Shown piece by piece: positions 14,576 to 57,622 of a stretch of DNA of 64,000 nucleotides. The notes beneath the pieces are model-generated. The model did no database searches. It worked only from the letters and a program-made list of their open reading frames with translations, and was not told where the DNA came from. This DNA comes from Pseudobutyrivibrio sp. Its GTDB lineage: Bacteria > Bacillota > Clostridia > Lachnospirales > Lachnospiraceae. The stretch covers positions 1 through 64,000 of the forward strand of contig JAFYYR010000003.1 in assembly GCA_017557435.1 (NCBI GenBank). The letters are read 5' to 3'. The stretch's first letter is position 1; each line of letters opens with the position of its first letter. Made by a program: the position numbers and the translations under genes.

Positions 14576-14614
14576 CTATATCTCCCAATAATCATAGTGT
14601 ATAAATATGCTTAT

Positions 14615-15913: not shown

Positions 15914-15946
15914 TTTTGACTAACAACTTTTCCTTTCGTAATCTTA

Positions 15947-17884: not shown

Positions 17885-17902
17885 AAGTATTAGCCCACTT
17901 TC

Positions 17903-19057: not shown

Positions 19058-19061
19058 AACA

Positions 19062-20081: not shown

Positions 20082-20120
20082 TACATTATCCTTTCAATCC
20101 AACAAAAAAATTGGTAATCT

Positions 20121-20864: not shown

Positions 20865-20878
20865 GTATGCCTCCATAC

Positions 20879-22821: not shown

Positions 22822-23793
22822 CTACACATTTTTATAATTTGAACTTTTAGGTGGAAAATCATTACAATCAAATCGAGGTAATACAAACTTTCCGTCTACA
22901 CCAACTTCAGCTATTCTTGGTTCTACTTTCATTCCAAGCTTACAACCCTTGGATTCTATGTATGAAATTACTGAATCACTATAATTTCCATAAGGATAAT
23001 TTAACACCCAATTATCTTTTTCAATAAATTCATCCATCACATCTAATGCTTTATCTATATCTTCGTGCAATTTCTTTTCAGATAGATTTGCTAGCCAGTA
23101 GTGATCATATCCATGTAAAGCAATATACATTCCATTGTCCTGCATCAAACGAATCTGATCACGATTCATATATAGTTCTCTTGCAAATTTATCTTCTTCA
23201 ATACCAACATATTTTTCAAATAATTTGCTAGATATCTGATTGCGTAGCTTCTCATCAATTGCCGTTTGAAGAATCCTCTTTACAAATATAGTCTCCTTTG
23301 TATCAAAACGATTAGCCACAGCATATTTTTCTATTAGCTCGTCATTTGACTGTACTACATGCCCCTCTGCACGCAATCTATCTAGTTCAACAAGAACATC
23401 ATCCATTAGTTCTTTATCATTACTAGCTGATGCAAGAGTAAAGTGTATTTTATTTACATCCAAAAGAACATTTTCAGTAAAAGTCTTTCCTGGAATAAAA
23501 AAAGAGCCTTGGAATCCATATTGTTTTAACAATGGCATCGCAACAGTATAGTTATCAATATACCCATCATCAAACGTCAATAGCAATGCATTTTCTGGAA
23601 GATTAGCTTCTTTCCCCTCCGGCAAATTCCATGCTTCAATTGCTTGTTCCATGGTAATCACATTGAAATTTTCTTTAAAAAAATCTAGCTGTTTTTTTAA
23701 TAAGGAATAATCCATTCCTTTTATTTCTGGATATCTACTATTTTTCAAATCACGTGTGTAATGGTACATTACGATGTATAGCTTATTGCTCAT
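22822..23793 (-). CDS. Polysaccharide deacetylase (NodB/CE4 family)
   Basis: The 323-residue protein contains the CE4 landmarks: YIVMYHYTRD at the start, the metal-binding LLLTFDDGYIDNY (about residue 73), the HGYDHYWL histidines, and NYPYGNYSDSV near the C-terminus. CE4 enzymes remove N-acetyl groups from amino sugars. No signal peptide or membrane helix is visible, so it seems to act in the cytoplasm, perhaps on a precursor. AAGGGGAT precedes the ATG. Next to the GNAT-like gene it may open an amino group that is then re-acylated (inference). Confidence 0.87.
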   Translation of the reverse strand: MSNKLYIVMYHYTRDLKNSRYPEIKGMDYSLLKKQLDFFKENFNVITMEQAIEAWNLPEGKEANLPENALLLTFDDGYIDNYTVAMPLLKQYGFQGSFFIPGKTFTENVLLDVNKIHFTLASASNDKELMDDVLVELDRLRAEGHVVQSNDELIEKYAVANRFDTKETIFVKRILQTAIDEKLRNQISSKLFEKYVGIEEDKFARELYMNRDQIRLMQDNGMYIALHGYDHYWLANLSEKKLHEDIDKALDVMDEFIEKDNWVLNYPYGNYSDSVISYIESKGCKLGMKVEPRIAEVGVDGKFVLPRFDCNDFPPKSSNYKNV

Positions 23794-23821: not shown

Positions 23822-24871
23822 TTATTCTCTAGGTACTCGATTGGGTCTATCTTGATCTCCATCAGCCTTAAAAATAACTACATCTCCATTGTTCTGATAA
23901 TAGTTTTTAATATTAGCTTTTACAAAAGGCTCAAAATAATGTGGAATAATTGTCTTACCGTCAGGATTCAATTTATTAAAGCCCGCTTGCTGTATATTGT
24001 AGTTAGATAAATCTGAAACCATTAAATCCACATATTCATACTTTTCAGATTTAAGTAAATCATGTAAAGCTCTTCCAATTTTCTCTAGATAAACTAAATC
24101 ACCTCTATAATCTACTATTCTTAATATCTTAGAAACACCAATCGTAATTTCTCTGCCAAATATAACACCAACTGTTTTATTATCAAAATCATTGATTAAC
24201 CATTTACGATATGTATAGTATGGATGCTCAAAATATCGTTTATTTATAAACTCAGGTGATTTAATTGACATATGTTCATTTTTTTCATTTAAATCATATG
24301 AATTAGATAAATCTCCAAAAGAAGAAATCTCTTTCAATATATACGGATACTCATAGAAATCATCAATATAATCATCAAAACAAGGTGCGGCAATCGTATT
24401 ATCCAACTCTAGATTAAGTATATAGTACTGCTCCATATATCCCACTTTATGTTTAAATACTTTTTGAAAAATAGGTAAAATAGTGTTTGGATTTGTACCA
24501 GAAGCAAAGTTTACTTTTTCTCCCACAAGCGCAACTTGTCTTCGCATCAATTCTATACCTGCCATAGGCATAACATCATTTGCTCTTATTTTAGTAATGG
24601 CGGTAGAAATGTGTAAACATGCTTTATTATTCGAATATGGTATAAAACCTATCAATCCCACAATTTGACCATCTTTTTCTGTCATTAATACTACGTTTAT
24701 TGTGCTATCATCGCCATATTCTTGACATCCATATTGCCAAATAAATAGTTTTCTATCATTTGCCAGTATATGATTTTCTCCCCATTCGGCCCGTATGAAG
24801 TCCATTATATCTGAGACATCATCTATTGTTGCAATTCTATAATCATATCTCGTATCATATCTATTTCCCAT
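23822..24871 (-). CDS. GNAT-like acyltransferase
   Basis: The 349-residue protein has an N-terminal GNAT-type domain (RIATIDDVSDIMDFIRAEW, then VVLMTEKDGQIVGLIGFIPY and KIRANDVMPMAGIELMRR in the acetyl-CoA-binding region), followed by a longer C-terminal part that looks like a second GNAT-fold copy. Proteins of this size occur in surface-glycan loci and are often annotated only as GNAT family. The acyl donor could be acetyl-CoA or an acyl-ACP, as an ACP cassette lies upstream in the operon. The substrate is unknown. CGGGA precedes the ATG. Confidence 0.65.
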   Translation of the reverse strand: MGNRYDTRYDYRIATIDDVSDIMDFIRAEWGENHILANDRKLFIWQYGCQEYGDDSTINVVLMTEKDGQIVGLIGFIPYSNNKACLHISTAITKIRANDVMPMAGIELMRRQVALVGEKVNFASGTNPNTILPIFQKVFKHKVGYMEQYYILNLELDNTIAAPCFDDYIDDFYEYPYILKEISSFGDLSNSYDLNEKNEHMSIKSPEFINKRYFEHPYYTYRKWLINDFDNKTVGVIFGREITIGVSKILRIVDYRGDLVYLEKIGRALHDLLKSEKYEYVDLMVSDLSNYNIQQAGFNKLNPDGKTIIPHYFEPFVKANIKNYYQNNGDVVIFKADGDQDRPNRVPRE

Positions 24872-24889: not shown

Positions 24890-25861
24890 CTATCCGTTTA
24901 AACTATTTATTGTATCTCTAATCATATTTACAGCATCAAAAAAACCTCTATATTCTTCAGGCGCCCATTTTTCTCTAATTCTTTGTTGTACCCCTGCTGG
25001 TCCAACAACTGATGGAACTGAAAGTGCAACATCTCTACACCCATGTTCTCCCTTCAATTCTGAACACACAGATGCAATAGTGGGTCTTTGATTAACGATT
25101 GCATCAGCCAATTGGCAAACACATGTAGCTATTCCAAAATGAGTTCTTCCTTTTTCGACTATAATCTCAGAGCCCATTTTCTTCGTTCTATCTGCCAATT
25201 CATGCATAATTTCTTCATTCCACTCAATTCCAACATCCGAACAATATTCATCAATTGGAATTCCTCCTACTGTCACGTGACTCCACACGGGTACTTGACT
25301 ATCTCCATGTTCACCTACAACATAGCCATTTACAACTCCTGTACTAAGTTCTAAATAATCTGCAATAGTTCTGACAAATCGAGATGAGTCTAAAATATTA
25401 CCTGACCCAAAAACCATACCATCTGGTAAACCAAACCACTGAATAGCTTTATATGTCAAAATATCTACAGGATTAGATATAATTAGTACCACGCCTCTCG
25501 TATAATACTCCTTAATAGCATCAACAACAGACCTCATAATCTTTATATTCTCATTAGTAAGATCTAATCTAGACTCTCCAGGTTTACGCCCTCGTCCAGC
25601 AGTAACTATTATCAAATCACAATCAGCGCAATCAGAATAATCCCCTGCGTACAAATCCGCAGTTCCCATTCCTGGAAGACCGTGTCGTATATCCTTAGCC
25701 TCTCCATCAGTTTTCTCCTGATTGATATCAATCATTACGATTTCACGAGCAACATCCTTTAAAGCTAGAGCATAGGCAATTGATGAGCCGACATAGCCTA
25801 TACCTATAATTGCGACCTTTCTATTTCCAATCGTATAGCCGGTTCTACTTTTGCTATTCAT
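24890..25861 (-). CDS. L-lactate/malate dehydrogenase family protein, malate-type specificity residue
   Basis: The roughly 323-residue enzyme belongs to the L-LDH/MDH family: IIGIGYVGSSIAYAL (NAD binding), Asp158 in NILDSSRF and the catalytic His185 in GEHGDSQVPVW. In the substrate loop TAGRGRKPGESR, Arg92 occupies the place of LDH Gln102, six residues before the conserved Arg; this change is known to switch LDH toward malate/oxaloacetate. So the substrate may be a 2-oxo-dicarboxylate or a related acid rather than pyruvate. The start at 25861 is seven bases after GGAG; an ATG directly before it is possible. Its place beside luxC-like and ACP genes suggests a biosynthetic role, not fermentation. 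Confidence 0.85.
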   Translation of the reverse strand: MNSKSRTGYTIGNRKVAIIGIGYVGSSIAYALALKDVAREIVMIDINQEKTDGEAKDIRHGLPGMGTADLYAGDYSDCADCDLIIVTAGRGRKPGESRLDLTNENIKIMRSVVDAIKEYYTRGVVLIISNPVDILTYKAIQWFGLPDGMVFGSGNILDSSRFVRTIADYLELSTGVVNGYVVGEHGDSQVPVWSHVTVGGIPIDEYCSDVGIEWNEEIMHELADRTKKMGSEIIVEKGRTHFGIATCVCQLADAIVNQRPTIASVCSELKGEHGCRDVALSVPSVVGPAGVQQRIREKWAPEEYRGFFDAVNMIRDTINSLNG

Positions 25862-25865
25862 CATA

Positions 25866-27071
25866 TCACTCCATAACAATCGTTCTAGTCAATAATGCCG
25901 GTAAATTATATCCATCCCATATCAAATCAAAATCCATTGTTTTACCAATTGGTACCACTCGATCTATACCTTTTACACCACTTATTAATAGTGGCAAAAA
26001 CATTTCTTTATCACCAATATATCCAAGTGTCTGGCACCTATTATCCTTACACAATGGCGCTATTGACATAATATCATCACAATCATATTCATAGAAATAC
26101 CCGCTGTTATCTCTATATTCCATCAGTTTTTCAGTCACATTCAAAACAGCAACCCTTACAATAAGATTATCTTTTCGCTCTAGTATTTTCACACCAAATT
26201 GTTCGGCTGCAGCCAAAAAAGCCTTAGTCAGCTTGTTCACTCCTTGGATAGACTGAAATGTATATTTTTTCTTGACCAATCTATATTCATTGTCCCAGAA
26301 TACTTTTTTAGCTTCTTGTTTTTGGGAGCCTGTCCAAACCACAATTCTAGGACTTGTACATGCATTCTGGTCTGTGAGAAAAGTATCGTTGTAAAAATCT
26401 TCCGCTACTCTCTCCTTATCCTCTATATCCATGTATCTATCAGAATCAATTACTGCTAATGAGTATCTGTCCGCAAAAGTTATCTCTCCAGCACGCGGTT
26501 GCAATGGTGATTTCCTCAACTCTGAAATTGTCTGATCTCCACCCCAAACAATTCTCACATCTGCTAATGAACTAAGTAAATCGTTTATATCCTTATCTCT
26601 ATCATAACGAATACATAAAACATATTGTCTCATCTCAGGATACTCTATTAAAGCTTTATTCAACGCATCTGTTATTATTCCGACTTGTGGAAATTCCTTT
26701 GATGGGACTCTAACTATATTCACATTTCCTGTTAATAATCCACTTACTAAACTGTATGCAAAATTGACTGGTACATTCGACGGTGCAATATGAAATGCAA
26801 CCCCCTTGCCTAACTTAATCTGCATTTCGTCGTTATATTTTCCATTTAATTTTACGATTGAACTCTTTCTAATCCAAAAAGCAAACGTAACAACATCTGA
26901 ATACATTCTCGAACGAGAATCCTTCATTATCTCTTTAGATGTATAATTTAAAAACTCAATAATAGAATTATCAAAAAGTTGCTTTGATGAAATATCAGAA
27001 ATACTATTTACAATTTCAGAGGTGCCAACTAGATAATTAATTCTATTTAATACATCAGAATTTAGTTGCAT
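25866..27071 (-). CDS. luxC: Acyl-CoA/acyl-protein reductase, LuxC family
   Basis: The roughly 401-residue protein is an aldehyde-dehydrogenase-fold fatty acyl reductase of the LuxC type: GKGVAFHIAPSNVPVNFAYS (cofactor-binding region), VWGGDQTISELRK, and the nucleophilic cysteine (about 240) in TDQNACTSPRIVVW. LuxC reduces an acyl group passed from LuxE to an aldehyde with NADPH. The LuxE-like gene is directly upstream and overlaps it. No luxAB is present, so this is a glycan-locus version. The start could be ATG 27071 or GTG 27080; GGGGG lies between typical spacings for the two. Confidence 0.88.
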   Translation of the reverse strand: MQLNSDVLNRINYLVGTSEIVNSISDISSKQLFDNSIIEFLNYTSKEIMKDSRSRMYSDVVTFAFWIRKSSIVKLNGKYNDEMQIKLGKGVAFHIAPSNVPVNFAYSLVSGLLTGNVNIVRVPSKEFPQVGIITDALNKALIEYPEMRQYVLCIRYDRDKDINDLLSSLADVRIVWGGDQTISELRKSPLQPRAGEITFADRYSLAVIDSDRYMDIEDKERVAEDFYNDTFLTDQNACTSPRIVVWTGSQKQEAKKVFWDNEYRLVKKKYTFQSIQGVNKLTKAFLAAAEQFGVKILERKDNLIVRVAVLNVTEKLMEYRDNSGYFYEYDCDDIMSIAPLCKDNRCQTLGYIGDKEMFLPLLISGVKGIDRVVPIGKTMDFDLIWDGYNLPALLTRTIVME

Positions 27072-28143
27072 ATGTGTCACTGCACCCCCTTATCTCAGCA
27101 TTTTTCAATCGACCATTTATTTTAAAATACTTTCCTTTTCTTCCACATGGGCAATCATCCTCCCCAAGAATAACACCTTCATCCTCTGTAAGAAGGCTAT
27201 GTCCTGGATAAGATTCAGGTATAACTGACACAACTTGAATTATTCCAGTCTCACCCATATCACATTCAGAGAAATCTATTGGTCTACGTGTTATTACATC
27301 AGAAAAGATAGATGCATGTAGATGGCCGCACTCACATTCCATGTATATACATCCTGTCTGCTCAACCATTCCATAATAATCGTAAATATGCTCTATTCCA
27401 CATACATCATTTAATCTCTTGTGAAACTCATCGTGACTAACAGCTTCAGAAATAAGCTTCTTCCAACCACCTCCATGAATAAGAATTCCATCTGAAAGAT
27501 CAAACGTAATGCCTCCATCTCTTAGTCTGACCAACTCTTTATAGAAGTGCTGCCAAATCATAAATGTAAAACCAAACATTAGTATCTTCTGTCCTTTATA
27601 TTTATCAAGGAATTCTCTTAGCCCATCGACATCCAATTTCATATTATCATCTAACGCATATATTTTTTTTGCGCCAAAAATAGAAAATCCTAAAATCCCT
27701 GCACCTCTAGCAGAAAACATAGCCCTATTTTTAACTACACTTGGACAATCAATAATTATCATTGGCATCCTACTTGAACCGGTAAAATCGGAAACTATTT
27801 TTACCATTGCCTTCTGTTGATTAGAAGAAGTCGTTTTATCAAGATATATCTTACTTACCGCTTGTCCCGTAGTCCCTGAAGAAGTCATAGTTTTTACAAC
27901 ATTTTCTTGTGAAATAGACTTCAACTCTAATTCTTTAAATAAACGCACAGGCAAAAAAGGTAAATCCTTATAAGAATTTACCTCTGTCTCATCAAAATTA
28001 AGAGCCTCAAGCATATTATTATATTCTTTACAATTTCTACGATGAAAAGCTGTCAGTTCTAATAACCTTTCTGTAAGCATCTTTTCCTTTTCTTTCGAAT
28101 CCAAAGAATATGGTGAAATATTTATAATATCATCAAAAGACAT
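27055..28143 (-). CDS. luxE: Acyl-protein synthetase, LuxE family
   Basis: The 362-residue protein is a LuxE-type acyl-activating enzyme of the adenylate-forming superfamily. It has FLPVRLFKELELKS, the phosphate-binding TSSGTTGQAVSKIYLDKTT, MIIIDCPSV, and EHIYDYYGMVEQTGCIYMEC, as well as a C-terminal Cys cluster (CPCGRKGKYFK). It activates a carboxylic acid as acyl-AMP and hands it to LuxC for reduction. GAGGA precedes the ATG. The gene overlaps luxC, and follows a type II thioesterase, as in the lux order of acid release, activation and reduction. Confidence 0.88.
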   Translation of the reverse strand: MSFDDIINISPYSLDSKEKEKMLTERLLELTAFHRRNCKEYNNMLEALNFDETEVNSYKDLPFLPVRLFKELELKSISQENVVKTMTSSGTTGQAVSKIYLDKTTSSNQQKAMVKIVSDFTGSSRMPMIIIDCPSVVKNRAMFSARGAGILGFSIFGAKKIYALDDNMKLDVDGLREFLDKYKGQKILMFGFTFMIWQHFYKELVRLRDGGITFDLSDGILIHGGGWKKLISEAVSHDEFHKRLNDVCGIEHIYDYYGMVEQTGCIYMECECGHLHASIFSDVITRRPIDFSECDMGETGIIQVVSVIPESYPGHSLLTEDEGVILGEDDCPCGRKGKYFKINGRLKNAEIRGCSDTYATKF

Positions 28144-28156
28144 ATTTGTATCCTCT

Positions 28157-28873
28157 TCAATCTTTTAGACTATCAAGTATTATACGAGCCATATCATTGT
28201 AATATTCTTTTATAAAAAAATGAGTGCCATTATATTTTACAAAATTACACTCTTTAACAAAAAAACGCTCCCACTCTTTCATTTCTTCAAACGGAGTATC
28301 TTCTTCTGAGTAAAAAACGGTTGCAGGAATATCTGACTCAACGTTAATTTTATCAAAGTTGTAATTGGCAATCATTTGGTAATCTGCTTTAAAAATTGAA
28401 AGATAGACTCTCCAAAAAATATTATTGTTTAATAGCTTTTCATCAACACCGCCAAAGTCTATAGTTCGTTTTTTTACCCAATCATCCAAGTCTACCTCTG
28501 GTATAGTCTTTAATGAATAAATAGACTTAGGTTGATGCGCAGAAATAAAAACTCTATTTGGTTTTTGTATATCATCTCTATTTAATATCTCTTTTATAAC
28601 ATCAAACAATGCGATGCTGCCCATACTATATCCCAACATAGAGTATTCTGCATCTTGATTGTTATCAAGAATCCTTTTTATTTGAGGAATAAAATCATTT
28701 GTTACCTCAGTAAAACTGCTGTAGAGTGGCTCCTTCATTCGAGTTCCATGACCTGAATACTCAAATTTTATAAACTCAATTCGATTTCCACATGCAGCTT
28801 CTAGCTCATTAAAAAAATCAGCTGTACCGCCAGCATATGGAAAACAAAATAACAACATTTTCTTATTGTTCAT
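28157..28873 (-). CDS. Type II thioesterase (alpha/beta hydrolase)
   Basis: The 238-residue protein is a GrsT/RifR-type external thioesterase: LLFCFPYAGGTADFFNEL at the start, FEYSGHGTRM, the nucleophile Ser83 in MLGYSMGSIALF, and a C-terminal histidine in YNGTHFFI. Such enzymes release or proofread acyl chains on carrier proteins. The neighbouring ACP and AMP-ligase make acyl-ACP the likely substrate. The released acid could then be taken up by LuxE/LuxC. The start at 28873 overlaps the ligase gene by eleven bases; a later ATG (28858) is possible. Confidence 0.87.
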   Translation of the reverse strand: MNNKKMLLFCFPYAGGTADFFNELEAACGNRIEFIKFEYSGHGTRMKEPLYSSFTEVTNDFIPQIKRILDNNQDAEYSMLGYSMGSIALFDVIKEILNRDDIQKPNRVFISAHQPKSIYSLKTIPEVDLDDWVKKRTIDFGGVDEKLLNNNIFWRVYLSIFKADYQMIANYNFDKINVESDIPATVFYSEEDTPFEEMKEWERFFVKECNFVKYNGTHFFIKEYYNDMARIILDSLKD

Positions 28874-30281
28874 AGTACTTTTCTAATTCCTTATATAATG
28901 TTTTGCCTGCATCATTCTTAGGAATTTCATCTATAACTATACATTTAAAAGCTGCTGGATTTAGTTTTGTTTTATTTATAACAAAGTTCCTAACCTCATC
29001 AGCAATTTCCTCATCAGTTACGAACAGATACAAATGATCATCTGTTCCTCCACTAGCAACTTCAATACTATATGCCCCCTTAATAAGACGATCTATCTCA
29101 TCAAGATTAACGCGATTGCCATATATCTTTAGAAATCTCTTCTTTCTTCCAACTATATAATAATAGCCATCACTATCAAATTGGGCCATATCTCCAGTTT
29201 CTAGGATGCCATTTCTTTCATCACCCTTAACTAAATCCTCGCCACATTCAGCATATCCAAGCGTTACATTTTTGCCTTCGTATACTAACTCTCCAGTCGT
29301 CAGAGGTTCAGTTATCTCATTACCATCAGCTCCAACAATCTTAAATTTACCGCCAGGAATTGGAATGCCCATTGAGCCCTTCTTTTCCACTGCTTTTTCC
29401 GGCGGCAAGTACCCCATTCGAGACGTTGCCTCTGATGCGCCATACATTACAACGAAATTCTTCCCCTGCTCTTTAGCATAAGCAGCAAATTTCTCGTGAA
29501 GCTCAGGAGTTATCTTCCCTCCGGCCTGAGTCATTGTCCTCAAGCTAGGTAGCTTCATTCGATAAAATCTCAACTTATCTAACATCTCATATGTATAAGG
29601 CACTCCTCCAAAGGATGTAGCCTCTTGATCTTTAAAAAAATTCCAAAACTCCTTTTGCATTAATCCTTTATCTGTTAGAAGAAGCGTAGCACCAACTAAA
29701 AAATGAGAATTAATAATCGATAGACCATATACATAATTCATTGGTAATGTTGTAATTGGTCTTTCCGTTGAATCTAATTTTAAATACTCTGCAATAGATT
29801 TAGCATTATCTAAAATATTAGTGTATGACTGTCGTACAAGTTTTGGCGAACCCGTAGAGCCAGATGTAGTAATGAGCAATCCAAGTTCATCATATAATGG
29901 GTAACTCTTCTTAAATCCTGTTTCTAATAAAACATAATCATATGCCTCATATTTTTCAGACATATTACTAAATTGATTCCTCTGATCCTTAGGCAACCAC
30001 AAGAACTCAGGTTTATATGCTTCTAGCAAAGTTGTCAATAGAATTTCTTCAAGATGACTATTTACCATTATTGGTACTATTCCGTTATTCACAAAAGAAC
30101 TATAACCTATAACGGAACCCACCTCATTTCTGCAAAGTGAGAAAACAAGGCATCTATGACCTATAACATCAGATAATTTTTTATTCTCGTTTTCCAAATC
30201 AGCATATGAAAGTTCATTTCCGAATTCATCAACAAGTGCTATATTCTTTTCATATCTACCCAGTTCCCAAATTTTGTTCAT
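28863..30281 (-). CDS. AMP-dependent acyl/amino-acid ligase loading the ACP
   Basis: The 472-residue adenylate-forming enzyme has the core motifs LLITTSGSTGSPKLVRQSYT, VMYGASEATSRMGYLPP, ETGDMAQFDSDGYYYIVGRK and the C-terminal catalytic lysine in IPKNDAGKTLYKEL. It is short and lacks its own carrier domain; the ACP gene immediately upstream overlaps its start by one base (TAATG). The expected job is to activate an acid with ATP and load it on that ACP. The substrate, fatty, hydroxy or amino acid, cannot be read from the sequence. It resembles the stand-alone ligases of flagellin and O-antigen acylation cassettes. Confidence 0.87.
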   Translation of the reverse strand: MNKIWELGRYEKNIALVDEFGNELSYADLENENKKLSDVIGHRCLVFSLCRNEVGSVIGYSSFVNNGIVPIMVNSHLEEILLTTLLEAYKPEFLWLPKDQRNQFSNMSEKYEAYDYVLLETGFKKSYPLYDELGLLITTSGSTGSPKLVRQSYTNILDNAKSIAEYLKLDSTERPITTLPMNYVYGLSIINSHFLVGATLLLTDKGLMQKEFWNFFKDQEATSFGGVPYTYEMLDKLRFYRMKLPSLRTMTQAGGKITPELHEKFAAYAKEQGKNFVVMYGASEATSRMGYLPPEKAVEKKGSMGIPIPGGKFKIVGADGNEITEPLTTGELVYEGKNVTLGYAECGEDLVKGDERNGILETGDMAQFDSDGYYYIVGRKKRFLKIYGNRVNLDEIDRLIKGAYSIEVASGGTDDHLYLFVTDEEIADEVRNFVINKTKLNPAAFKCIVIDEIPKNDAGKTLYKELEKYYEQ

Positions 30282-30523
30282 TAGAATTCTACTCCATATT
30301 CTGATTTAGATAAAATTTCCTTGCCTTTTTCAAAAGAATTTAAATCAATTATATCATCTGTGTCCATCATAATATCAAACGCTTCCTCTAATGCAGAAAT
30401 CAATCCCATATGTCCTACGGAATCCCAAGCATCAATATCCTGATACTTAAGGCCTTGTGCCTCCTCTGCTGTAATCTCAAAAGTCTCTACAAACACATTT
30501 GTGTACTTTTCTAAATTTGTCAT
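30281..30523 (-). CDS. Acyl carrier protein
   Basis: The 80-residue acidic protein has the phosphopantetheine site Ser35 in DIDAWDSVGHMGLISAL. The helix-rich frame is typical of stand-alone ACPs. The start at 30523 follows GGAGG by eight bases; an upstream ATG lacks this. It overlaps the ligase gene by one base, which suggests equal or coupled production. It should carry the acyl group handled by the ligase, thioesterase and possibly the FabZ-like protein. The DSVGHM motif differs from the DSLxxV of fatty-acid AcpP, in favour of a dedicated pathway. A second ACP is at 57623-57862. Confidence 0.92.
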   Translation of the reverse strand: MTNLEKYTNVFVETFEITAEEAQGLKYQDIDAWDSVGHMGLISALEEAFDIMMDTDDIIDLNSFEKGKEILSKSEYGVEF

Positions 30524-30546
30524 TTTATAATCCTCCATTTTAAATA

Positions 30547-31578
30547 TTAATCTAATTGTTCCGGCATAATAACAGTATCCATCTCTATATCTGTCTTTGC
30601 TTTCCTGCCGATAACCAATTCCATTTTATTTGGTTCTATACCAGTGCCAGGTCTTTTAGCATATAAATCAGACGCCTTTATAATTTCGCCTGCTTTTATA
30701 TCTCTAGTTGAAACTATGCTTCTTCTCATATTCTTTCGCTGATCTAATTCTTGCTGAAGTATTTCACGTTCTTGTGTACCCAGTGCAATTTGAATATTGC
30801 GACATTTATTAACCAATTCATTAAACTCTGGGGGCTCTGTGGCCATCCCATTATCCATACCAACTTTTGACTTATCTAATGTAAGATGCTTTTCTATTAC
30901 TGCCGCGCCTAATGCGATAGCTGCAACTGCTGCCGCATCACCCTCTGTATGATCTGAAAAACCAATTGGGTATTTTTCGAATCTCTCACGTAAACCTATT
31001 ATATTATTGAGATTCACATTTGTAAGAATAGTTGGGTAAATCGAAACGCAATGTAAAATAACCATCTGCTCCACGCCACTTTCCCGTAGTACTTTTTCTG
31101 CCTCTTCAATTTCCTCAAATGTAGACATTCCTGTAGATAAAACTATTGGAACATTTTTCTTCCCAATGTATTGAAGAAATATAGGATTATTCAACTCCAT
31201 AGATGCAATTTTCACAAATGGAACATCACATTCATCCACAAGGAAATCCACCTCTTCCTCTGAATATGGTGTCGATGAAAAAGCAATTCCTTTTTCTTTG
31301 CAATAATCAGCCAGTTCTTTCAACTGTTCTGGAAGCATTGAAAACTTCTTGACAAATCTTTTTGAAATTGGATTTGCATCATAGTAAGTTTTTGAGTATA
31401 AAGACGCAACTGACCATGATTGAAATTTTACACAATCGCACCCTATTTCTACAGAAGCATCAATCATACGCTTGGCTATTTCAATATCTCCATTATGACT
31501 ACTATTAACCTCCGAAATAATATATGGTCTGCCATAATCAGATACAATTGTTCCGTCTCTAAAAACACATTTAGCCAT
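30547..31578 (-). CDS. NeuB-family synthase, divergent paralogue
   Basis: The 343-residue protein has the NeuB barrel (SEVNSSHNGDIEIAKRMID, CVKFQSW, VLSTGMSTFEEIEEAE, HCVSIYPT, GFSDHTEGDAA, VIEKHLTLD) and a C-terminal SAF domain (AKRPGTGIEPNKM). The substrate loop reads VGMDNGMATEPPEF where true sialic/legionaminic synthases have GPDHxxS, so it probably condenses phosphoenolpyruvate with a different aldehyde or sugar. It is four-gene-coupled: ThDP enzyme upstream, ACP and ligase downstream. GGAGG precedes the ATG. No second NeuA or NeuC gene is present. Confidence 0.87.
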   Translation of the reverse strand: MAKCVFRDGTIVSDYGRPYIISEVNSSHNGDIEIAKRMIDASVEIGCDCVKFQSWSVASLYSKTYYDANPISKRFVKKFSMLPEQLKELADYCKEKGIAFSSTPYSEEEVDFLVDECDVPFVKIASMELNNPIFLQYIGKKNVPIVLSTGMSTFEEIEEAEKVLRESGVEQMVILHCVSIYPTILTNVNLNNIIGLRERFEKYPIGFSDHTEGDAAAVAAIALGAAVIEKHLTLDKSKVGMDNGMATEPPEFNELVNKCRNIQIALGTQEREILQQELDQRKNMRRSIVSTRDIKAGEIIKASDLYAKRPGTGIEPNKMELVIGRKAKTDIEMDTVIMPEQLD

Positions 31579-31580
31579 AT

Positions 31581-33362
31581 TTATTCCTCCATCATTTCTA
31601 TTATCATTTCTTGTTCAATTATTTTTCTAGGAAGAAATGGTGATAGGTCTTCAATTGGTCTATGTACCAATTTACGCTTTTCATTAATTGTATAGGATTC
31701 ATGAAAATATTTTTGTTCTGGGGTGCACATTACTTCAATTATTTCTGCCCCGCCTTGTAACATAGTAGGTAACTCATTTAATAATTCAGTCCTGTCACTT
31801 ATTTTCTTATAACCGAAATCAAAACAGGTTGATATCTTATAAAAATCTGGCTGTGGCACTCCATCATCAGGGTCATTTCCTATTGTTCGTTTTCTAAAAA
31901 GATCCTTTTGTCTTTTTCGAATGACTGCATACATATTATTATTTATGACAATAATTTTTACCGGAATGTTCAAATTAGATATAATTTCAAGTTCCTGCAA
32001 ATTCATCATAATTGAGCCATCACCAACTATACATACTATATTCCTACGACCAGCCATATAGGCACCAATAATAGCAGGAATTGCATATCCCATTGCCCCT
32101 TGAGCTGCTGGAAACAAACAACGCTGACCTTCTTTATACTTTATTGCTGATGGAACTATTAACTCTTCAAAACCAGCATCTGTGATTACAGTTGCATCAT
32201 CAGGTATTATAGCACTTAACTCATTAATTAACGAATATAAATCATTACAGTTTTCGCTTATTAACTCTTTAATGAATTCTTCATTTTCAATAGCAAATAT
32301 CTTTTTCCAATGTATGCACTTTTGAGGCCATGCAACATCGTGAAGTTTTAATTGCATTAACAAAAGAGCTTCTAATACTTCCTTTGCATCTCCAATAATT
32401 AGGTCATCTATCTTTATTCCATCTTTCTTGTGCTCAGCTTCATCTATATCAATAGCAATTACTTTAGCATATCTAGCAAAGTTTTCTTTTACACCTGTAA
32501 GTTGGGAGCACATCTTGGTTCCAACCGCAAGAACCAAATCACTATTTTGGATAGCGATATTTCCCGAACGAGACCCTCCTAAACTACCAACAGTTCCAAT
32601 GGATAACTCATTTGATGTTCCATAAATATCAGAGCCCGCTTGAGAACAAACAGCTGGGATATTATATTTCTCAATTAATTCCTTTAATTGTTTTTTTGCT
32701 CCTCTAGCACCACCGCCAAACAAAACTATAGGTCTTTCAGCCTCATTTAATGCTTTGGATATTTTGTTTATATCGTTTTCATCAAACGACCTAGCTTTTT
32801 TCGATTCTATAAAGTGTTTTGCATCCGCTTCTTCAATGCGCATATTCTGAACATCTAAAGGCACATCTATCCAGATTGGACCTGGTCTACCTTCGCGTGC
32901 CATGTATATGGCCTTTTCAACTTCATATACTGCCGACTCTGCATCTTTCAACATTACTGCATATTTTGTTACCGACTTGACGACGCTTATTATATCTGCC
33001 TCTTGAGAGCCATATGTTCTAATATTAACGCCAGTATATCTTGTATTCTCATTTCTTGGATTATTTCCTGATATGAAAACAACTGGAAGGTTATCTTGAT
33101 ATGCACATAAACAAGCCGTAACAGCATTTGTTGCTGCACATCCAGTTGATACAAGACAAGCTGATACGCCTTCATTAACACTAGCATATGCCATTGCAGC
33201 GTATGAAGCCCCTTGTTCATGATATGTCGATACTGCTTCAATATTGCTATTTTTAGCCACAGCATCTGTAAGATACAATATACCTCTTCCCGTTATAAGA
33301 AATATATGCGCTGCACCAGCCTCATTTACTTTTCTAATTATATAATCCGCTACTCTTTCCAT
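31581..33362 (-). CDS. ThDP-dependent acetolactate-synthase-like enzyme (first copy)
   Basis: The 593-residue protein has the three-domain ThDP layout: N-terminal Pyr domain with the cofactor-activating Glu49 (STYHEQGASYAA), a central domain (PIVLFGGGARGAKKQL), and the C-terminal PP domain with GDGSIMMNLQELEII ... VINNN binding ThDP/Mg. Family members decarboxylate a 2-oxo acid and couple the product to an aldehyde or ketone. Housekeeping acetolactate synthase is unlikely given the position between FabZ-like and NeuB-like genes and the lack of a regulatory subunit. The two-base gap to the NeuB paralogue suggests linked function. A second copy is at 46392-48200. Confidence 0.85.
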   Translation of the reverse strand: MERVADYIIRKVNEAGAAHIFLITGRGILYLTDAVAKNSNIEAVSTYHEQGASYAAMAYASVNEGVSACLVSTGCAATNAVTACLCAYQDNLPVVFISGNNPRNENTRYTGVNIRTYGSQEADIISVVKSVTKYAVMLKDAESAVYEVEKAIYMAREGRPGPIWIDVPLDVQNMRIEEADAKHFIESKKARSFDENDINKISKALNEAERPIVLFGGGARGAKKQLKELIEKYNIPAVCSQAGSDIYGTSNELSIGTVGSLGGSRSGNIAIQNSDLVLAVGTKMCSQLTGVKENFARYAKVIAIDIDEAEHKKDGIKIDDLIIGDAKEVLEALLLMQLKLHDVAWPQKCIHWKKIFAIENEEFIKELISENCNDLYSLINELSAIIPDDATVITDAGFEELIVPSAIKYKEGQRCLFPAAQGAMGYAIPAIIGAYMAGRRNIVCIVGDGSIMMNLQELEIISNLNIPVKIIVINNNMYAVIRKRQKDLFRKRTIGNDPDDGVPQPDFYKISTCFDFGYKKISDRTELLNELPTMLQGGAEIIEVMCTPEQKYFHESYTINEKRKLVHRPIEDLSPFLPRKIIEQEMIIEMMEE

Positions 33363-33372
33363 GTTTACCTAC

Positions 33373-33864
33373 TTAATTATTCTTAGGCCTAAATGAACGC
33401 ATCACATCAGGAATGGCTATTGTAAGCTCTGCTTTGCATGCAACTTTACCATTTAAATAACCTATTGATTTACCTTTTGCTAAACCTCTCTTATAAGAGT
33501 CTAGCTCTGCCACTATATCAAGTCTATCTCCCGGAATAATTTTCTCTCTAAATTCTGTAGTTGTTTTAATAAATGCAGTCTTCATGCCCTCATTTCCCGG
33601 AATTGTAAGAAACGACATCAAAAACATTTGAGTCAGGGCTTCCATCTGAACAAATCCAGGGACATTTGGTTCATCTTCAAAATGTGCAGGAAAGAACCAT
33701 TCATTGTATGAAAAATTCTTATATCCTTTTGCACTTTTTCCAGCAATTGCCTCATCTACATAATCGATAAAAAGTAATGGATATCGATTTTGTTGAAATT
33801 TCTGAATTTCATATGCGTCTATATCAGTATATACTACCTCTTTATCCTTTTCTATTTTTTTCAT
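33373..33864 (-). CDS. FabZ/FabA-like hotdog dehydratase
   Basis: The 163-residue hotdog-fold protein has the beta-hydroxyacyl-ACP dehydratase pattern: YPLLFIDYVDEAIAGKSAKG, the catalytic His61 in WFFPAHFEDEPNVPGF and Glu75 in QMEALTQMFL. The family removes water from 3-hydroxyacyl-ACP. Here it lies in the same run as an ACP, ligase and thioesterase, so a substrate on that ACP is likely. It is divergent and longer than housekeeping FabZ, and there is no FabD/F/G gene alongside. AGGAGA precedes the ATG. Confidence 0.85.
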   Translation of the reverse strand: MKKIEKDKEVVYTDIDAYEIQKFQQNRYPLLFIDYVDEAIAGKSAKGYKNFSYNEWFFPAHFEDEPNVPGFVQMEALTQMFLMSFLTIPGNEGMKTAFIKTTTEFREKIIPGDRLDIVAELDSYKRGLAKGKSIGYLNGKVACKAELTIAIPDVMRSFRPKNN

Positions 33865-45729: not shown

Positions 45730-46392
45730 TTATTTAAAATCCCAATTAATTAATCTATCCTGTAGTTCTGAAACAGTATCTACTGATACTACATCACTAT
45801 ATTCACCATCTTCCAGTGAGCCCTGGCCCCATGTCACAAATATGCATGGTATCTGAGCATTCTTTGCTGTATTCACATCACTCATGCCATCACCTACATA
45901 GATAGCTTGAGATACATCCTCGCCGCACTCATCACAAATCATATTTACACCATAAGCATCTGGCTTAGATGGTCTAGTTTCCAAATATCCTACTACGGAG
46001 TCAAACATATCCACAGGGAATATTTTTTCATTTAATTGATCAACTAGCACCTGTCCCTTGTTCGTGTTGATAGCTAGCTTCCACCCCTGATTCTTAAGGG
46101 TATATAGCATATCCATTACTCCTGGGTATGGCTTAGTGTTTTCCTTTTCACTAGTACTATATATGCTACGATAGGTTGTTTTTACCTTATCTATATTTTC
46201 TTCCGAAATACAGTTTTGAGGAAGCATCCTCGAAACGACTGTCTCGAGATTGCCTCCTACAAATCCATCGTAAGCTTTTATTGGATGTTCTGGAAATCCA
46301 TTCTCCTTTAGTGCCCTATTAAAAGATAAGGCCACATCAGTTATTGTGTCTACTATGGTTCCATCAAAATCAAATATTGCTACTTTATTCAT
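45730..46392 (-). CDS. HAD-superfamily hydrolase (phosphoglycolate-phosphatase-like)
   Basis: The 220-residue protein has the HAD motifs: Asp8/Asp10 in VAIFDFDGTIVDT, the Thr in LAINTNKGQ, the Lys in ETRPSKPDAYG, and VGDGMSDVNTAKNA. It is likely a small-molecule phosphatase in the cytoplasm. Its neighbours on either side, a ThDP enzyme and an SDR, suggest the removal of a phosphate in the building of an unusual sugar, or a repair role. AGGTATA lies upstream, with a one-base overlap to the ThDP gene. Confidence 0.88.
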   Translation of the reverse strand: MNKVAIFDFDGTIVDTITDVALSFNRALKENGFPEHPIKAYDGFVGGNLETVVSRMLPQNCISEENIDKVKTTYRSIYSTSEKENTKPYPGVMDMLYTLKNQGWKLAINTNKGQVLVDQLNEKIFPVDMFDSVVGYLETRPSKPDAYGVNMICDECGEDVSQAIYVGDGMSDVNTAKNAQIPCIFVTWGQGSLEDGEYSDVVSVDTVSELQDRLINWDFK

Positions 46393-48200
46393 TATTTTAT
46401 ATACCTATTAGATTCGTATTCATCTCTAGGAAGGAATGGGAACATGTCGTCCATAGATGGAGATACAATACTTCCATCTGGCATTACCTTACTAGAAAGC
46501 TTAGGAACAAAGTTCTGATCTGGGTCTACTACTACATTGATAAGAACTGGTCCCTCTGCAGCCAAAGCTTCTTCGATTGTATTTCTTACATCAGGCTCGT
46601 TGTTAACCTCGAAATACTTGAATCTAAACGCCTCAGCTAATTTATCAAACTCAGGGAAGCTAACACCTGTCTCTGGATCAAGTCCAATAAGAGGTGGCTT
46701 AAATAAGTTTCTTTGAGTCTGTCTAATTGAATGATATCCATTATTATTAAGAACAAATAATTTTACATTAAGATTGTTGTGTGCAATAGTAGCAAGCTCC
46801 TGAACATTCATCATAAGGCTGCCATCACCATCTACACATACTACTCTTCCATTATTGTCCTCTCTAGCAATAGCTGCACCAAGAGCTGCTGGCATTCCAT
46901 AACCCATGGCTGCGCAACCAGCATTAGTAAACATTCTCTGGCCCTGCTTGATTTTAGCACCAGAGAAGCACATTACACATGCACTACCATTACCAAGTGT
47001 AAGCACATCCTTCTCATCCATACAATCAAACAATGTATCAACAAATACGTATGGATTTAGAAGCTCATCCTTTGAGTTATGGTGATACTCTGGTAAGCAA
47101 GCTGGATACTTTTCTACCATCATACGGCACCACTTTATCCAATCCTCATGCTCTGCATTTGGTGTGTAATCCATCTCCATCATGCGTCTAAGGAATAGAT
47201 TAACATCTGTACAAATAGGCATATCAGGAATGAATGTAGGCTTCTTAAGCTCCTGATCATCTATATCAACCATAATCTTATAAGCATTCTTCGCAAAGTC
47301 GTGCTTATTATATGTAATTGTTCTAATGCTCATTCTGCTTCCAAGTACAAGCAATAGATCACAATTCTGTACTATGAAACTGCTACCTCTAGTACCCTCT
47401 CTACTAGGAGAACCAGCATAAAGCGGATTATCATATGCAACTAAATCACCTGAGTTCCATGCAACAGCAACTGGAATCTGAAGCTTCTTAGCAAAATCGA
47501 GTAAAAGCTGATCAGAATCAGAAAGTCTCACACCATATCCTGCAAAAATAAGAGGAGCCTTAGCCTTTGAGATTTTGTCTAAGATGTCCTTAAGCTGCTC
47601 ATCTGAAACATCAGAAATTTTAACCTCAAGTCCCTCTGCTTCAGCATCAAAATGCTTAAGCTCAAGACCGTCAATTTTCGCGCCCTGTACATCAAGAGGT
47701 ATATCAAGCCAAACTGGACCCTTTCTGCCATTATTAGCTAAGTACCATGCCTTTTCGAGATGATATGCTATCTCTGCAGGCTCTGTAATCATAACAGCAT
47801 ACTTTGTCATGTTTGATACAGAGTTGATAATATCAAACTCCTGATCACCAAGCTGTCTAAGATTTAATTCTGGGACAGACCATAGTGTAGTCTCTCTCTT
47901 AACCTGACCTGAAAGAACAAACATAGGGATAGAATCTAACCATCCACCCATAACACCTGTTATAGCATTGGTTCCACCAGGACCACTAGTAACACATACA
48001 CTAGCTATCTTACCTGTTACTCTAGTGTATGCCTCAGCTGCAACCGAGCACCCCTGCTCGTTGTGATTAAAGATATTCTTAATCTCTGCCTTGTGTCCAA
48101 GAGCATCATCAAGCTGCATAGCACCGCCACCGGTAACCATGAAATTATGAGTAACACCCTTTTCTACGAGAAAATCTGCAATATAATCTACTACTCTCAT
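46392..48200 (-). CDS. ThDP-dependent acetolactate-synthase-like enzyme (second copy, YerE-like context)
   Basis: The 602-residue protein has the ThDP enzyme layout: Glu48 in IFNHNEQGCSVAAEAYTR, central domain APLIFAGYGVRLSDSDQ, and GDGSLMMNVQELATI ... VLNNNGYHSIRQ for ThDP/Mg. In the yersiniose pathway the related YerE couples an acetaldehyde unit from pyruvate to C4 of a CDP-4-keto-3,6-dideoxyhexose. Here rfbF and rfbH lie two genes upstream, so the same kind of chain-branching reaction is plausible. A separate DRE-TIM aldolase sits directly upstream. AGGAG lies about 12 bases before the ATG. Related to, but clearly different from, the copy at 31581-33362. Confidence 0.85.
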   Translation of the reverse strand: MRVVDYIADFLVEKGVTHNFMVTGGGAMQLDDALGHKAEIKNIFNHNEQGCSVAAEAYTRVTGKIASVCVTSGPGGTNAITGVMGGWLDSIPMFVLSGQVKRETTLWSVPELNLRQLGDQEFDIINSVSNMTKYAVMITEPAEIAYHLEKAWYLANNGRKGPVWLDIPLDVQGAKIDGLELKHFDAEAEGLEVKISDVSDEQLKDILDKISKAKAPLIFAGYGVRLSDSDQLLLDFAKKLQIPVAVAWNSGDLVAYDNPLYAGSPSREGTRGSSFIVQNCDLLLVLGSRMSIRTITYNKHDFAKNAYKIMVDIDDQELKKPTFIPDMPICTDVNLFLRRMMEMDYTPNAEHEDWIKWCRMMVEKYPACLPEYHHNSKDELLNPYVFVDTLFDCMDEKDVLTLGNGSACVMCFSGAKIKQGQRMFTNAGCAAMGYGMPAALGAAIAREDNNGRVVCVDGDGSLMMNVQELATIAHNNLNVKLFVLNNNGYHSIRQTQRNLFKPPLIGLDPETGVSFPEFDKLAEAFRFKYFEVNNEPDVRNTIEEALAAEGPVLINVVVDPDQNFVPKLSSKVMPDGSIVSPSMDDMFPFLPRDEYESNRYIK

Positions 48201-48223
48201 CTGTCCAAACTGCTCCTATCTAA

Positions 48224-49852
48224 TTAAAATGCCGCGTCGTGGCTATCTTCCACATCCATATAATGTGAATATGTAACGAAATCAATATTCATATCTGAAT
48301 ATGTCTCCGTGATAACTTCTCTAATATGTTTGTTAAGCTGTCTAGCCTCTGCCTTTACAAAAGAGTATTCCATCTTTGGATTGAAATAGTTATCTTCCTT
48401 ATCAGAATAACCGTCTAATCCGGCACATGCTACATCCTTAACGCCACAAGTATTGAGTACCTTGAGCAACATAAGGAAAGAATTATCAACGATATGCTCG
48501 TACTTTTCTAATAACTTTTCTCTTGTGAATGTAAACTCAAATTCACCGCCTCTTGCTGTGACATTGCTAGTACCAATAATCTTAGTATCTTTATTCTTTA
48601 TCTCCAGCAAATCATCTGACATATCCTTATATCTATTTGACTTAGATACAAATACATAATCAGGTGCATAGGCTCCTGGAATATAATTGATAGAAATAAT
48701 AACTGGCTTTTTCTCTTCAATATATTTATCAACCTGCTTTGACTGAAGTTGGATATTTTTGCCAGGACCAACTAAAAGTACATTCTTACCCTTTAAAGTA
48801 GCTGCAAGCTTTTCGTAATCTTTTGAATCATCAAGTACTGTGCTTTCATATTCTTTATAAAGCTCTTCAGCAACAGCCTTGTCGTATAAAAGCTTTGTAT
48901 CTTCAGGCTCAATCTTTGCGAGCAAATCATTAATCGCTGAGATAGAAAGACTTGGCTTATCCTGCATCTGCTGAACATAGTTAGGATGCACTCTATTGTA
49001 TGCTGAAAGATAGAAGTACATCTTGTAGCCCCAAGGAGTCTTCTTATAGAAATCAAGTACACACTCATCAATACCCTCGAGCATTGCATTGATATTGTAT
49101 GACTTACCATACTTCTGATTCATGTACATTCCCACAAGCTCGATAGGTGCATTACCAGCACTCTTACCCATACCAAAGAGAGTACCATCAACGAGGATAT
49201 CTCTATTAGACTCTCTATCAAGGAATGTACGACTATTAGCATACGCAAGCTGGAAATTGTTGTGAGCATGGAATCCGATAGCCACAGACTCATCAACATG
49301 TGAATCAAGCATCTCATAGTAGTGAGTGAGCTTCTCTGGATCGAGAAGTCCGTATGTATCTACAATACCTACTGCAAATGGCTTAATCTCATTTACAAGA
49401 CCGATAAGCTCCATGAGCTCCTCGTCATTGTAACTTGTGATAGATACAAGCTGTGAACATACCTTGTATCCAAGCTTTTTAAGCTCTGCACAAAAAGCCA
49501 TAGCCTCGTGCATAATATGCTTCTTAAAGATAACTCGTATACCATCAAGAATGCTCTCTTCGCATGGCTGAATATTATCTAATCCGCATGTACCATAGTC
49601 AATCATACCGATGACCATTGGTGGGCGTTTCTTGATGCCACCATAGATTTTCTCGATAGACGCTGTGTCTGGGAAAATACTTCTATTGATATCAAATGGT
49701 CTTCTCTCATCGATAAATCCCACTTCGATGATATCAACCCCTGCATCAGCTACTCGCTCAAAAATCGCGCAAATATTGTCATGTCCAAACTCCCAATCAT
49801 TAACATATCCACCATCTCTAAGTGTACAATCAAGTAACTTTATATTTCGCAT
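48224..49852 (-). CDS. DRE-TIM metallolyase / aldolase with extra C-terminal domain
   Basis: The 542-residue protein begins with an HMGL-type barrel (about 1-290): LLDCTLRDGGYVNDWEF with the metal-binding Asp and Arg, IEVGFIDERRPFD, GIVDTYGLLDP and the FHAHNNFQLAYANS metal histidines, as in 4-hydroxy-2-oxovalerate aldolase. About 230 further residues form a second domain (LKGKNVLLVGPGKNIQLQ) that looks Rossmann-like. The combination is known from glycan loci but its reaction is not established to my knowledge. It may cleave or make a 2-oxo acid used by the ThDP enzyme next to it. TTAGGAG precedes the ATG. Confidence 0.83.
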   Translation of the reverse strand: MRNIKLLDCTLRDGGYVNDWEFGHDNICAIFERVADAGVDIIEVGFIDERRPFDINRSIFPDTASIEKIYGGIKKRPPMVIGMIDYGTCGLDNIQPCEESILDGIRVIFKKHIMHEAMAFCAELKKLGYKVCSQLVSITSYNDEELMELIGLVNEIKPFAVGIVDTYGLLDPEKLTHYYEMLDSHVDESVAIGFHAHNNFQLAYANSRTFLDRESNRDILVDGTLFGMGKSAGNAPIELVGMYMNQKYGKSYNINAMLEGIDECVLDFYKKTPWGYKMYFYLSAYNRVHPNYVQQMQDKPSLSISAINDLLAKIEPEDTKLLYDKAVAEELYKEYESTVLDDSKDYEKLAATLKGKNVLLVGPGKNIQLQSKQVDKYIEEKKPVIISINYIPGAYAPDYVFVSKSNRYKDMSDDLLEIKNKDTKIIGTSNVTARGGEFEFTFTREKLLEKYEHIVDNSFLMLLKVLNTCGVKDVACAGLDGYSDKEDNYFNPKMEYSFVKAEARQLNKHIREVITETYSDMNIDFVTYSHYMDVEDSHDAAF

Positions 49853-49867
49853 TTTAAAAACTCCTAA

Positions 49868-51226: not shown

Positions 51227-51291
51227 AAATATTCCTCATTTCAAATTTATAAATCTATTTTATGATTATACCACCATTCTTGTTGGCATTT

Positions 51292-53373: not shown

Positions 53374-53487
53374 AATCATACCTCCTTGATTGTTATACTC
53401 TTATCTTAGATACAGTATAACAAATATAAATTATCCTTCTATATTTTTTTCTAATAATCCTTTTTGTTATCTGACTCTCTATCTAAT

Positions 53488-57598: not shown

Positions 57599-57622
57599 AA
57601 TCTACACCCTTTATTTAAAAAA

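Follow-up and report, generated by a model that had tools for sequence, protein, structure and literature searches.

The first 64,000 nucleotides of contig JAFYYR010000003.1 from Pseudobutyrivibrio sp. (assembly GCA_017557435.1, 2.84 Mb in 29 contigs), below called the window, contain a cassette of nine consecutive open reading frames (ORFs) on the minus strand between positions 24890 and 33864 (Table 1). Their products belong to the families that the original prediction for this DNA had named: a 2-hydroxyacid dehydrogenase of the lactate/malate dehydrogenase (LDH/MDH) family, LuxC, LuxE, a thioesterase, an acid ligase, an acyl carrier protein (ACP), the phosphoenolpyruvate (PEP)-condensing enzyme NeuB2, a thiamine diphosphate (ThDP)-dependent enzyme and a FabZ-like dehydratase. 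No two neighbours are more than 13 bases apart, and some overlap (distances of -26 to +13), so that the block is compatible with one operon. It lies within an unbroken run of minus-strand genes that begins near 3.8 kb and reaches the right end of the window, and the annotated genes of this run (the annotation excludes the last three, 60078-63975) are largely glycan genes.

Table 1. Genes of the cassette, followed by flanking and nucleotide-sugar genes of the window (scores in bits)
Feature	Position	Strand	Basis
LDH/MDH-family 2-hydroxyacid dehydrogenase	24890..25879	-	PF00056/PF02866; TIGR01771 L-lactate dehydrogenase 313 vs cut-off 304
LuxC-type acyl reductase	25866..27080	-	PF05893 95 bits; Cys kept 86/86
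LuxE-type acyl-protein synthetase	27055..28143	-	PF04443 190 bits; acyl Cys kept 86/86
Type II-like thioesterase	28157..28873	-	PF00975, Thioesterase 84 bits; Ser/His kept 42/42
AMP-forming acid ligase	28863..30281	-	PF00501, AMP-binding 129 bits; P-loop and Lys kept 75/75
Acyl carrier protein	30281..30538	-	NCBIfam ACP E 4.7e-5, under cut-off; DSxxH Ser 73/73
NeuB2, PEP-condensing, variant acceptor motif DNxMA	30547..31578	-	PF03102 252 bits + SAF
YerE/JanthE-type ThDP carboligase	31581..33362	-	three ThDP domains; best PDB match 8rph JanthE; tree
FabZ-like 3-hydroxyacyl-ACP dehydratase	33373..33864	-	PF07977, FabA-like 55 bits; FabZ 91 vs cut-off 113
Tandem-GNAT-fold acyltransferase, possible final acyl transfer	23822..24871	-	
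Polysaccharide deacetylase-like, often with GNAT gene	22822..23793	-	PF01522; L046, L057, L064
CDP-glucose 4,6-dehydratase	4593..5696	-	TIGR02622 426 vs 278
Second YerE/JanthE-type ThDP enzyme (THDP2)	46392..48200	-	best PDB match 8rph 396 bits; tree
HMGL-type, 4-hydroxy-2-oxovalerate-aldolase-like	48224..49852	-	PF00682; best PDB match 3dxi (putative aldolase), followed by 4-hydroxy-2-oxovalerate aldolases
RfbH, 3-deoxygenation of CDP-4-keto-6-deoxyglucose	49868..51226	-	NF011936 715 vs cut-off 423
Glucose-1-phosphate cytidylyltransferase	51292..52068	-	TIGR02623 356 vs 300

Eight of the nine cassette proteins exceed the Pfam gathering score. The exception, the ACP, is the weakest family call (E 0.027 in Pfam and 4.7e-5 in NCBIfam, both under cut-off); its phosphopantetheine serine is invariant in all 73 aligned sequences. 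These and the following conservation counts include the window sequence together with the aligned cassette relatives, and for LuxE, LuxC, the ligase, the thioesterase, FabZ and the ThDP enzyme they refer to the presumed active-site motifs. LuxC and LuxE score over the cut-offs of their Pfam families and carry the catalytic cysteine and the C-terminal acyl cysteine, respectively. Both stay far below the NCBIfam equivalogs for long-chain bioluminescence enzymes (44.5 vs 750 bits for LuxC, 72.6 vs 550 bits for LuxE), and the host genome contains one LuxC match at E<=0.001. The ThDP glutamate is kept in 14 of 14 sequences, and the FabZ-like protein, which remains under the FabZ equivalog cut-off, aligns with a conserved His (21/23) and Glu (23/23). 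The dehydrogenase passes the L-lactate dehydrogenase equivalog and misses the subfamily model PRK00066 (313 vs 339). At the position that presumably corresponds to Gln102 of classical LDH, all 16 sequences, the window copy included, have Arg. Malate specificity is not claimed from this residue, because the identical Arg occurs in PDB 1y6j, an entry deposited as L-lactate dehydrogenase, and because the L-lactate dehydrogenase model is over its cut-off. Hints of a cispentacin pathway were likewise dropped, the matches to AmcH (76 bits vs cut-off 370) and AmcE (22 vs 140) being far too low.

The recurrence of the cassette was analysed with LuxE as bait, using one genome per species. The best 80 of 196 relatives (69-84% identity) define the loci to which the counts out of 80 refer (handles L); by their records most are from Clostridia, and others from Treponema, Salinivirgaceae and Synergistaceae. 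Some are fragments of metagenome-assembled genomes, and near-duplicates were removed only in one repeat of the test on ThDP partners described below. The loci were searched with the window proteins and three proteins of locus L002, and those with at least 8 kb upstream and at least 5 kb downstream of LuxE (n=53) are termed wide. LuxC is found in 79 loci, the ligase in 78, the ACP in 69, a short-chain dehydrogenase/reductase (SDR) in 52 and the thioesterase in 41, followed by a split transketolase (31-33), LDH (18), NeuB2 (15), FabZ (13), the ThDP enzyme (12) and an HMGL-like aldolase (3). The core of ACP, ligase, LuxE and LuxC occurs together in 69 of 80 loci and in 50 of the 53 wide ones. A single long ORF (median 780 aa) accounts for the LuxE match in eight loci; in L036, from about 10 kb, this ORF continues into a LuxC-like part. 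The original prediction had proposed a search for co-occurrence of the nine families across genomes and named its absence as a refutation. Co-occurrence is seen: at least eight families lie together in six of the 80 loci (L010, L051, L054, L058, L064, L066), and all nine in L010, L054 and L058, with the NeuB2 of L054 in two pieces. The cassette is a conserved, recurring module of glycan loci, which is probably mobile. The loci support the original prediction in so far as these genes join an acid-to-aldehyde step to C-C-bond-forming enzymes, and the chemistry that it proposed is broadly plausible.

Searches with other baits gave related loci. The ThDP enzyme was used as query against overlapping draws of 391 genomes from the class, 397 from the family and 398 from the phylum (handles G). 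Among eight matches at E<=1e-110 other than the query itself, the four closest (G772, G265, G058, G135) are encoded in LuxE cassettes; the last three genomes are those of L046, L044 and L071, as judged from matching gene coordinates or identical tree rows, leaving only G772 as new to the LuxE set, and its contig stops after LuxE, before LuxC. The match in G582 lies on a 4.7-kb contig, and those in G156 and G860 are nearer to THDP2 and accompanied by cytidine diphosphate (CDP)-sugar genes. With NeuB2 as query, 371 genomes of the class contained three matches at E<=1e-80: the window protein itself, one in the cassette of G265, and one in G313 (44-46% identity), which is a nonulosonate-type synthase with the motif DHKVS and with cytidine monophosphate (CMP)-transferase and PglD genes as neighbours. 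Two further loci lie on plasmids. A Rhizobium anhuiense plasmid (L139:3179-15362) carries split transketolase, acyltransferase, ACP-like, ligase, DegT, LuxE, LuxC, SDR, GMC oxidoreductase and FabZ genes next to a siderophore receptor; these are the same modules in another phylum, where they perhaps serve a small molecule. On a Deinococcus plasmid (L138:5383-10771), a minimal run of ACP, SDR, ligase, LuxE, LuxC and acetyltransferase genes lies within a glycan locus.

The C-C-bond-forming slot behind the core is modular. A same-strand NeuB2, ThDP enzyme, HMGL-like aldolase or split transketolase is present in 39 of the 53 wide loci. NeuB2 and transketolase seem to be largely mutually exclusive (both in two wide loci, p=0.023), and NeuB2 occurs with the ThDP enzyme in seven loci and without it in eight. 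In L038, L014 and L017, from culturable Acetatifactor or Lachnoclostridium isolates, SDR and transketolase accompany the core and NeuB2 is absent. The original prediction treated NeuB2 and the ThDP enzyme as alternative ways to extend an aldehyde. The loci suggest instead that the two act in series: NeuB2 (7) or HMGL (3) is found in 10 of 12 loci with a member of the ThDP clade and in 8 of 68 without (p=1.4e-6). After removal of six near-duplicates, the figures are 8/10 and 8/64 (p=3e-5); for NeuB2 alone in wide loci the association is weaker (5/9 vs 8/44, p=0.03). The NeuB2 and ThDP genes are adjacent in all nine cassettes that carry both, counting the window and L111. According to family chemistry, NeuB2 and HMGL would both be expected to yield 4-hydroxy-2-oxo acids; the HMGL partner is placed here because the named solved structures that rank highest for the window HMGL protein are mostly 4-hydroxy-2-oxovalerate aldolases.

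NeuB2 is a member of the NeuB family, with PF03102 and SAF domains, the metal-binding His pair and the PEP-binding Lys. The presumed active-site residues of Neisseria NeuB were compared with 16 distinct cassette copies (L054, in two pieces, and L045, a partial hit, were omitted; L082 and L115 repeat L046). All 16 share E25, K53, Q55, K129, S132, Y186, S213, H215, H236, D247 and R314, while E134 is Asp in three, S154 is Ala in two and N184 is Ser or Ala. At the D247-type Asp the 16 copies have the motif DNxMA, which is absent from nine comparators (two PDB enzymes, NeuB1 of the window, and L032, L034, L036, L057, L075 and L143); motif and grouping are partly dependent, because resemblance to NeuB2 of the window served to assign the copies. 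The cassette copies also have a gap at N74, and position 288 is Asn in seven of eight ThDP-linked copies (Lys in L064) and Lys or Arg in all eight copies without ThDP. Together, these features suggest that the acceptor differs from that of nonulosonate synthases, and that there may be two different acceptors. If the modular line proposed below is right, a NeuB subfamily with a non-standard acceptor might be predictable from one motif. NeuB2 shares the family, PEP and metal residues with the nonulosonate synthases NeuB, LegI and PseI, but its N74 loop is shorter, DNxMA replaces DHKxS or DSKFS, and its nine-gene block contains no CMP-transferase or 2-epimerase. As a candidate N-acetylneuraminic, legionaminic or pseudaminic acid synthase it falls short of the equivalog cut-offs (324 vs 400 bits for NeuB, 272 vs 340 bits for PseI). 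A second sialic or legionaminic acid synthase is disfavoured by both motif and gene context. The same operon contains, at 13961-21817, PglD-, PglE-, PglF-, NeuC-, NeuB- and CMP-transferase-like genes of an apparent legionaminic-acid-type pathway.

The closest solved relative of the ThDP enzyme is structure 8rph, which is JanthE (PMC12188165), with 345 bits over the full length, compared to 225 bits for Escherichia coli acetolactate synthase I. An unrooted tree of 61 rows (56 of them different) omits four short loci (L081-L084) that repeat the window or larger loci, and long branches were flagged for JanthE, acetolactate synthase I and some others. A branch with 100/100 support separates JanthE and 46 rows, among them both ThDP enzymes of the window, from IlvB/acetolactate synthase and five distant rows, which represent three enzymes, including L109 from a CDP-sugar cluster. 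The cassette enzymes form a clade of 19 rows (99/98), 17 of which are from the window or LuxE loci (100/99). The window enzyme therefore appears to be YerE-like by class. Acetolactate synthase was rejected as an identification: the score is 327 against a cut-off of 538, the enzyme falls outside the IlvB clade and JanthE is the better match. JanthE residue numbers were set by one offset that matches all five reported residues. Among the 16 clade rows compared, K567 is found in none, Y297 only in L062, and V121 in L072, L112 and L113. Y297 and K567 are both present in the three THDP2 rows compared. Because the pocket residues differ, the substrates of the cassette enzyme are probably unlike those of JanthE, which accepts 4-hydroxy-2-oxovalerate when benzaldehyde is the acceptor (PMC12247030, PMC12188165). 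The related ErwE prefers 4-hydroxy-2-oxo acids over pyruvate (PMC12247030, PMC12188165).

These observations can be accommodated in a modular line that converts an acid to an aldehyde and then to a carbon-extended building block for the surface glycan, a tentative reading to which we assign a probability of about 0.43. The LDH-family enzyme would provide a small 2-hydroxy acid. As known for their families, LuxE would adenylate the free acid and hold the acyl group on its cysteine, and LuxC would reduce it to the aldehyde. NeuB2 could then add PEP to the aldehyde, giving a 4-hydroxy-2-oxo acid. The YerE/JanthE-type enzyme may decarboxylate this product and ligate the resulting acyl anion to another carbonyl compound. 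The finished acid might be loaded onto the ACP by the ligase and trimmed or edited by FabZ and the thioesterase, before an acyltransferase, for which the tandem-GNAT protein is a candidate, transfers it to an amino sugar. If correct, C-C modules (NeuB, ThDP enzyme, aldolase, transketolase) would be swapped behind a common acid-to-aldehyde core and thereby diversify surface sugars.

Several observations weigh against this scheme. The LDH score over the L-lactate dehydrogenase cut-off means that this enzyme may simply produce lactate. Residues E25, Q55, D247 and R314, which we take to be sugar-contacting in NeuB, are kept in NeuB2, and a sugar acceptor is therefore possible. Extension is optional, because a same-strand C-C enzyme is missing from 14 of the 53 wide loci (one of them, L027, has a transketolase on the opposite strand). 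The frequencies of C-C enzymes, SDR and acyltransferases all derive from LuxE-bait loci. G615 encodes a member of the ThDP clade in a CDP-deoxysugar cluster without LuxE and LuxC. Finally, the ThDP enzyme of the window differs from JanthE at all five pocket residues studied in PMC12188165.

The window also contains genes for CDP-4-keto-3,6-dideoxyglucose formation together with THDP2 and the HMGL aldolase (46392-52068 and 4593-5696). This erwiniose-like branched-sugar set may mirror the logic of the cassette. A flavin-reductase protein with a rubredoxin-like domain, encoded upstream of the cytidylyltransferase and of RfbH (52735-53379), could serve as electron source of RfbH in place of the usual reductase.

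A serious rival, although we regard it as unlikely, is that the cassette makes a branched-sugar donor. The ThDP enzyme would decarboxylate a 4-hydroxy-2-oxo acid made by NeuB2 and add it to a keto sugar such as CDP-4-keto-3,6-dideoxyglucose, in analogy to the role of ErwE in erwiniose formation, and ACP, ligase and FabZ would supply the starting acyl group. The YerE-like grouping fits this function, and the complete CDP-4-keto-3,6-dideoxyglucose gene set of the window scores over curated cut-offs. Linked CDP-deoxysugar genes are usual for YerE-like carboligases, although they are not known to define the group. RfbH is present in ten of the 16 distinct genomes that carry the ThDP clade, compared with 34 of 379 other genomes of the class draw (p=5e-7; the background is 37/382 minus three shared genomes). 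It is missing, however, from the remaining six, including the 99% complete G058, and six of the ten RfbH-positive genomes have a second YerE-like enzyme, which confounds the association. Without these the ratio is 4/10 (p=0.01), in a test that dropped only RfbH-positive genomes with a second enzyme and no RfbH-negative ones. The other four are G265, G615 and those of L064 and L078; in each of them the sole ThDP match above 300 bits is the clade member. L078 combines cassette and CDP-sugar genes in one locus, and the sister enzyme L113 lies in a CDP-sugar cluster. Yet G265 (L046) also has a distant ThDP enzyme adjoining an HMGL gene, and in the stretches fetched for the genomes of L010, L066, L064 and G772 no ThDP gene is adjacent to RfbH. 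In the window itself, THDP2 and HMGL adjoin RfbH and are already available for the branched-sugar job, and the cassette enzyme has lost both Y297 and K567 of JanthE, which THDP2 rows keep.

The linear order of the original prediction, in which the ligase charges the ACP, FabZ acts, the thioesterase releases the acid for LuxE and LuxC, and NeuB2 or the ThDP enzyme extends the aldehyde, appears distinctly unlikely. It parallels the LuxD-LuxE-LuxC sequence of bioluminescence and would give a role to the tandem FabZ copies of several cassettes. However, all seven loci with two LuxE/LuxC pairs carry one ligase, and the thioesterase was found in 41 of 80 loci. For these reasons LuxE probably uses free acids, and ligase and ACP may act late. 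A late acyl-ACP is also suggested by acyltransferase genes in 33 of 53 wide loci, a loose count in which PglD matches qualify at 24% identity or more, wherever they lie in the locus. Alternatively, the cassette could be a chance juxtaposition of two or three short pathways with no functional link. ACP, ligase, LuxE, LuxC, thioesterase and FabZ would then serve a hydroxyacyl decoration, NeuB2 would form a second nonulosonic acid and the ThDP enzyme would perform acetolactate-type chemistry. NeuB2 and ThDP are absent from most of the 80 loci that define the core, and NeuB chemistry normally is nonulosonate synthesis, but the adjacency of NeuB2 and ThDP wherever both occur, the deviating NeuB2 motif and the position of the ThDP enzyme outside the acetolactate synthase group make such a coincidence rather implausible. 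It is equally hard to favour a ketosynthase-free chain assembly, in which each round would form an aldehyde by LuxE/LuxC, gain three carbons from PEP through NeuB2 and lose one through decarboxylation or ligation by the ThDP enzyme, with FabZ and SDR tailoring ACP-bound intermediates and double LuxE/LuxC loci running two rounds. A search of the 80 LuxE loci for relatives of the host FabF gave no ketosynthase-like sequence; FabH-type enzymes lay outside this search.

Other genes of the window accompany the core or resemble acyl decoration systems. The WecE-type aminotransferase (41088-42224) and a family 2 glycosyltransferase (GT2; 38298-39254) travel with the LuxE core, and all ten wide loci that have the first of this pair also have the second (p=5e-8). 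An FkbH-like protein, an ACP, an AAC(3)-like acyltransferase and a DUF4910 protein (55799-60075) look like a glyceroyl-ACP decoration set. An acyltransferase cluster from 17 loci was considered as WecD-like; this identity was not adopted, since the matches of the three members tested are weak (E 1.5e-8 to 0.004) and under cut-off.

The tetronate pathway of Vibrio cholerae O1 consists of a carrier protein, a ligase, a LuxC-like reductase, an alcohol dehydrogenase and an acyltransferase, and we know of no NeuB2, ThDP or FabZ partner for it. The nine window proteins include no SDR or alcohol dehydrogenase and thus do not constitute this pathway; an SDR is encoded in 52 of the 80 related loci. The systems appear related in outline: in the pathway described in PMC12208996 and PMC3441752, a small hydroxy acid is activated by a ligase, putatively together with the carrier protein, and then attached to an amino sugar as an acyl group.

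The core itself has been described before. Group II flagellin glycosylation islands of Aeromonas encode ACP, SDR (3-oxoacyl-ACP reductase), AMP-synthetase, LuxE, LuxC and GT2 (PMC7874193), those of Enterobacteriaceae are similar (PMC4875605), and the function in these accounts is a guess, fatty acid or liposugar. A GT2-type gene follows luxC in those islands, and GT2a has the same place in some of the loci analysed here; the islands treated include FabZ in one strain (PMC4875605), and their pseI, a NeuB relative, belongs to the pseudaminic acid set. The terms "acetolactate" and "ilvB" do not occur in either paper. The original prediction knew of ACP or LuxE genes in some flagellin/O-antigen loci and not of the full set. 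No paper with the full set was found, but the ACP-ligase-LuxE-LuxC core is published. Judged by title and abstract, searches of open-licence PMC listed no paper that combines LuxE/LuxC with NeuB and ThDP or transketolase in one pathway, and the extension of the known core by NeuB2 and ThDP appears new. The flagellin glycan of Aeromonas AH-3 has an uncharacterised moiety of 102 Da (PMC7874193); a dihydroxybutanoyl group would add 102.03 Da, which is a lead only. If the modular line exists, the role of ACP-LuxE-LuxC genes in flagellin and polysaccharide islands becomes directly testable.

Split transketolases, which fill the C-C slot in many LuxE loci and not in the window cassette, have been proposed for the branched sugars of miharamycin and amipurimycin, with a keto sugar as proposed acceptor (PMC12247030); their role is putative in both systems. 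YerE and ErwE act on CDP keto sugars, and the passages on them in PMC12247030 and PMC12188165 name no LuxE/LuxC supply line. The ThDP enzyme of the window groups with JanthE, and both JanthE and ErwE use 4-hydroxy-2-oxo acids of the kind that NeuB2 could make. The modular line, if confirmed, would thus offer a physiological source of the hydroxylated 2-oxo acids preferred by YerE-like enzymes such as ErwE.

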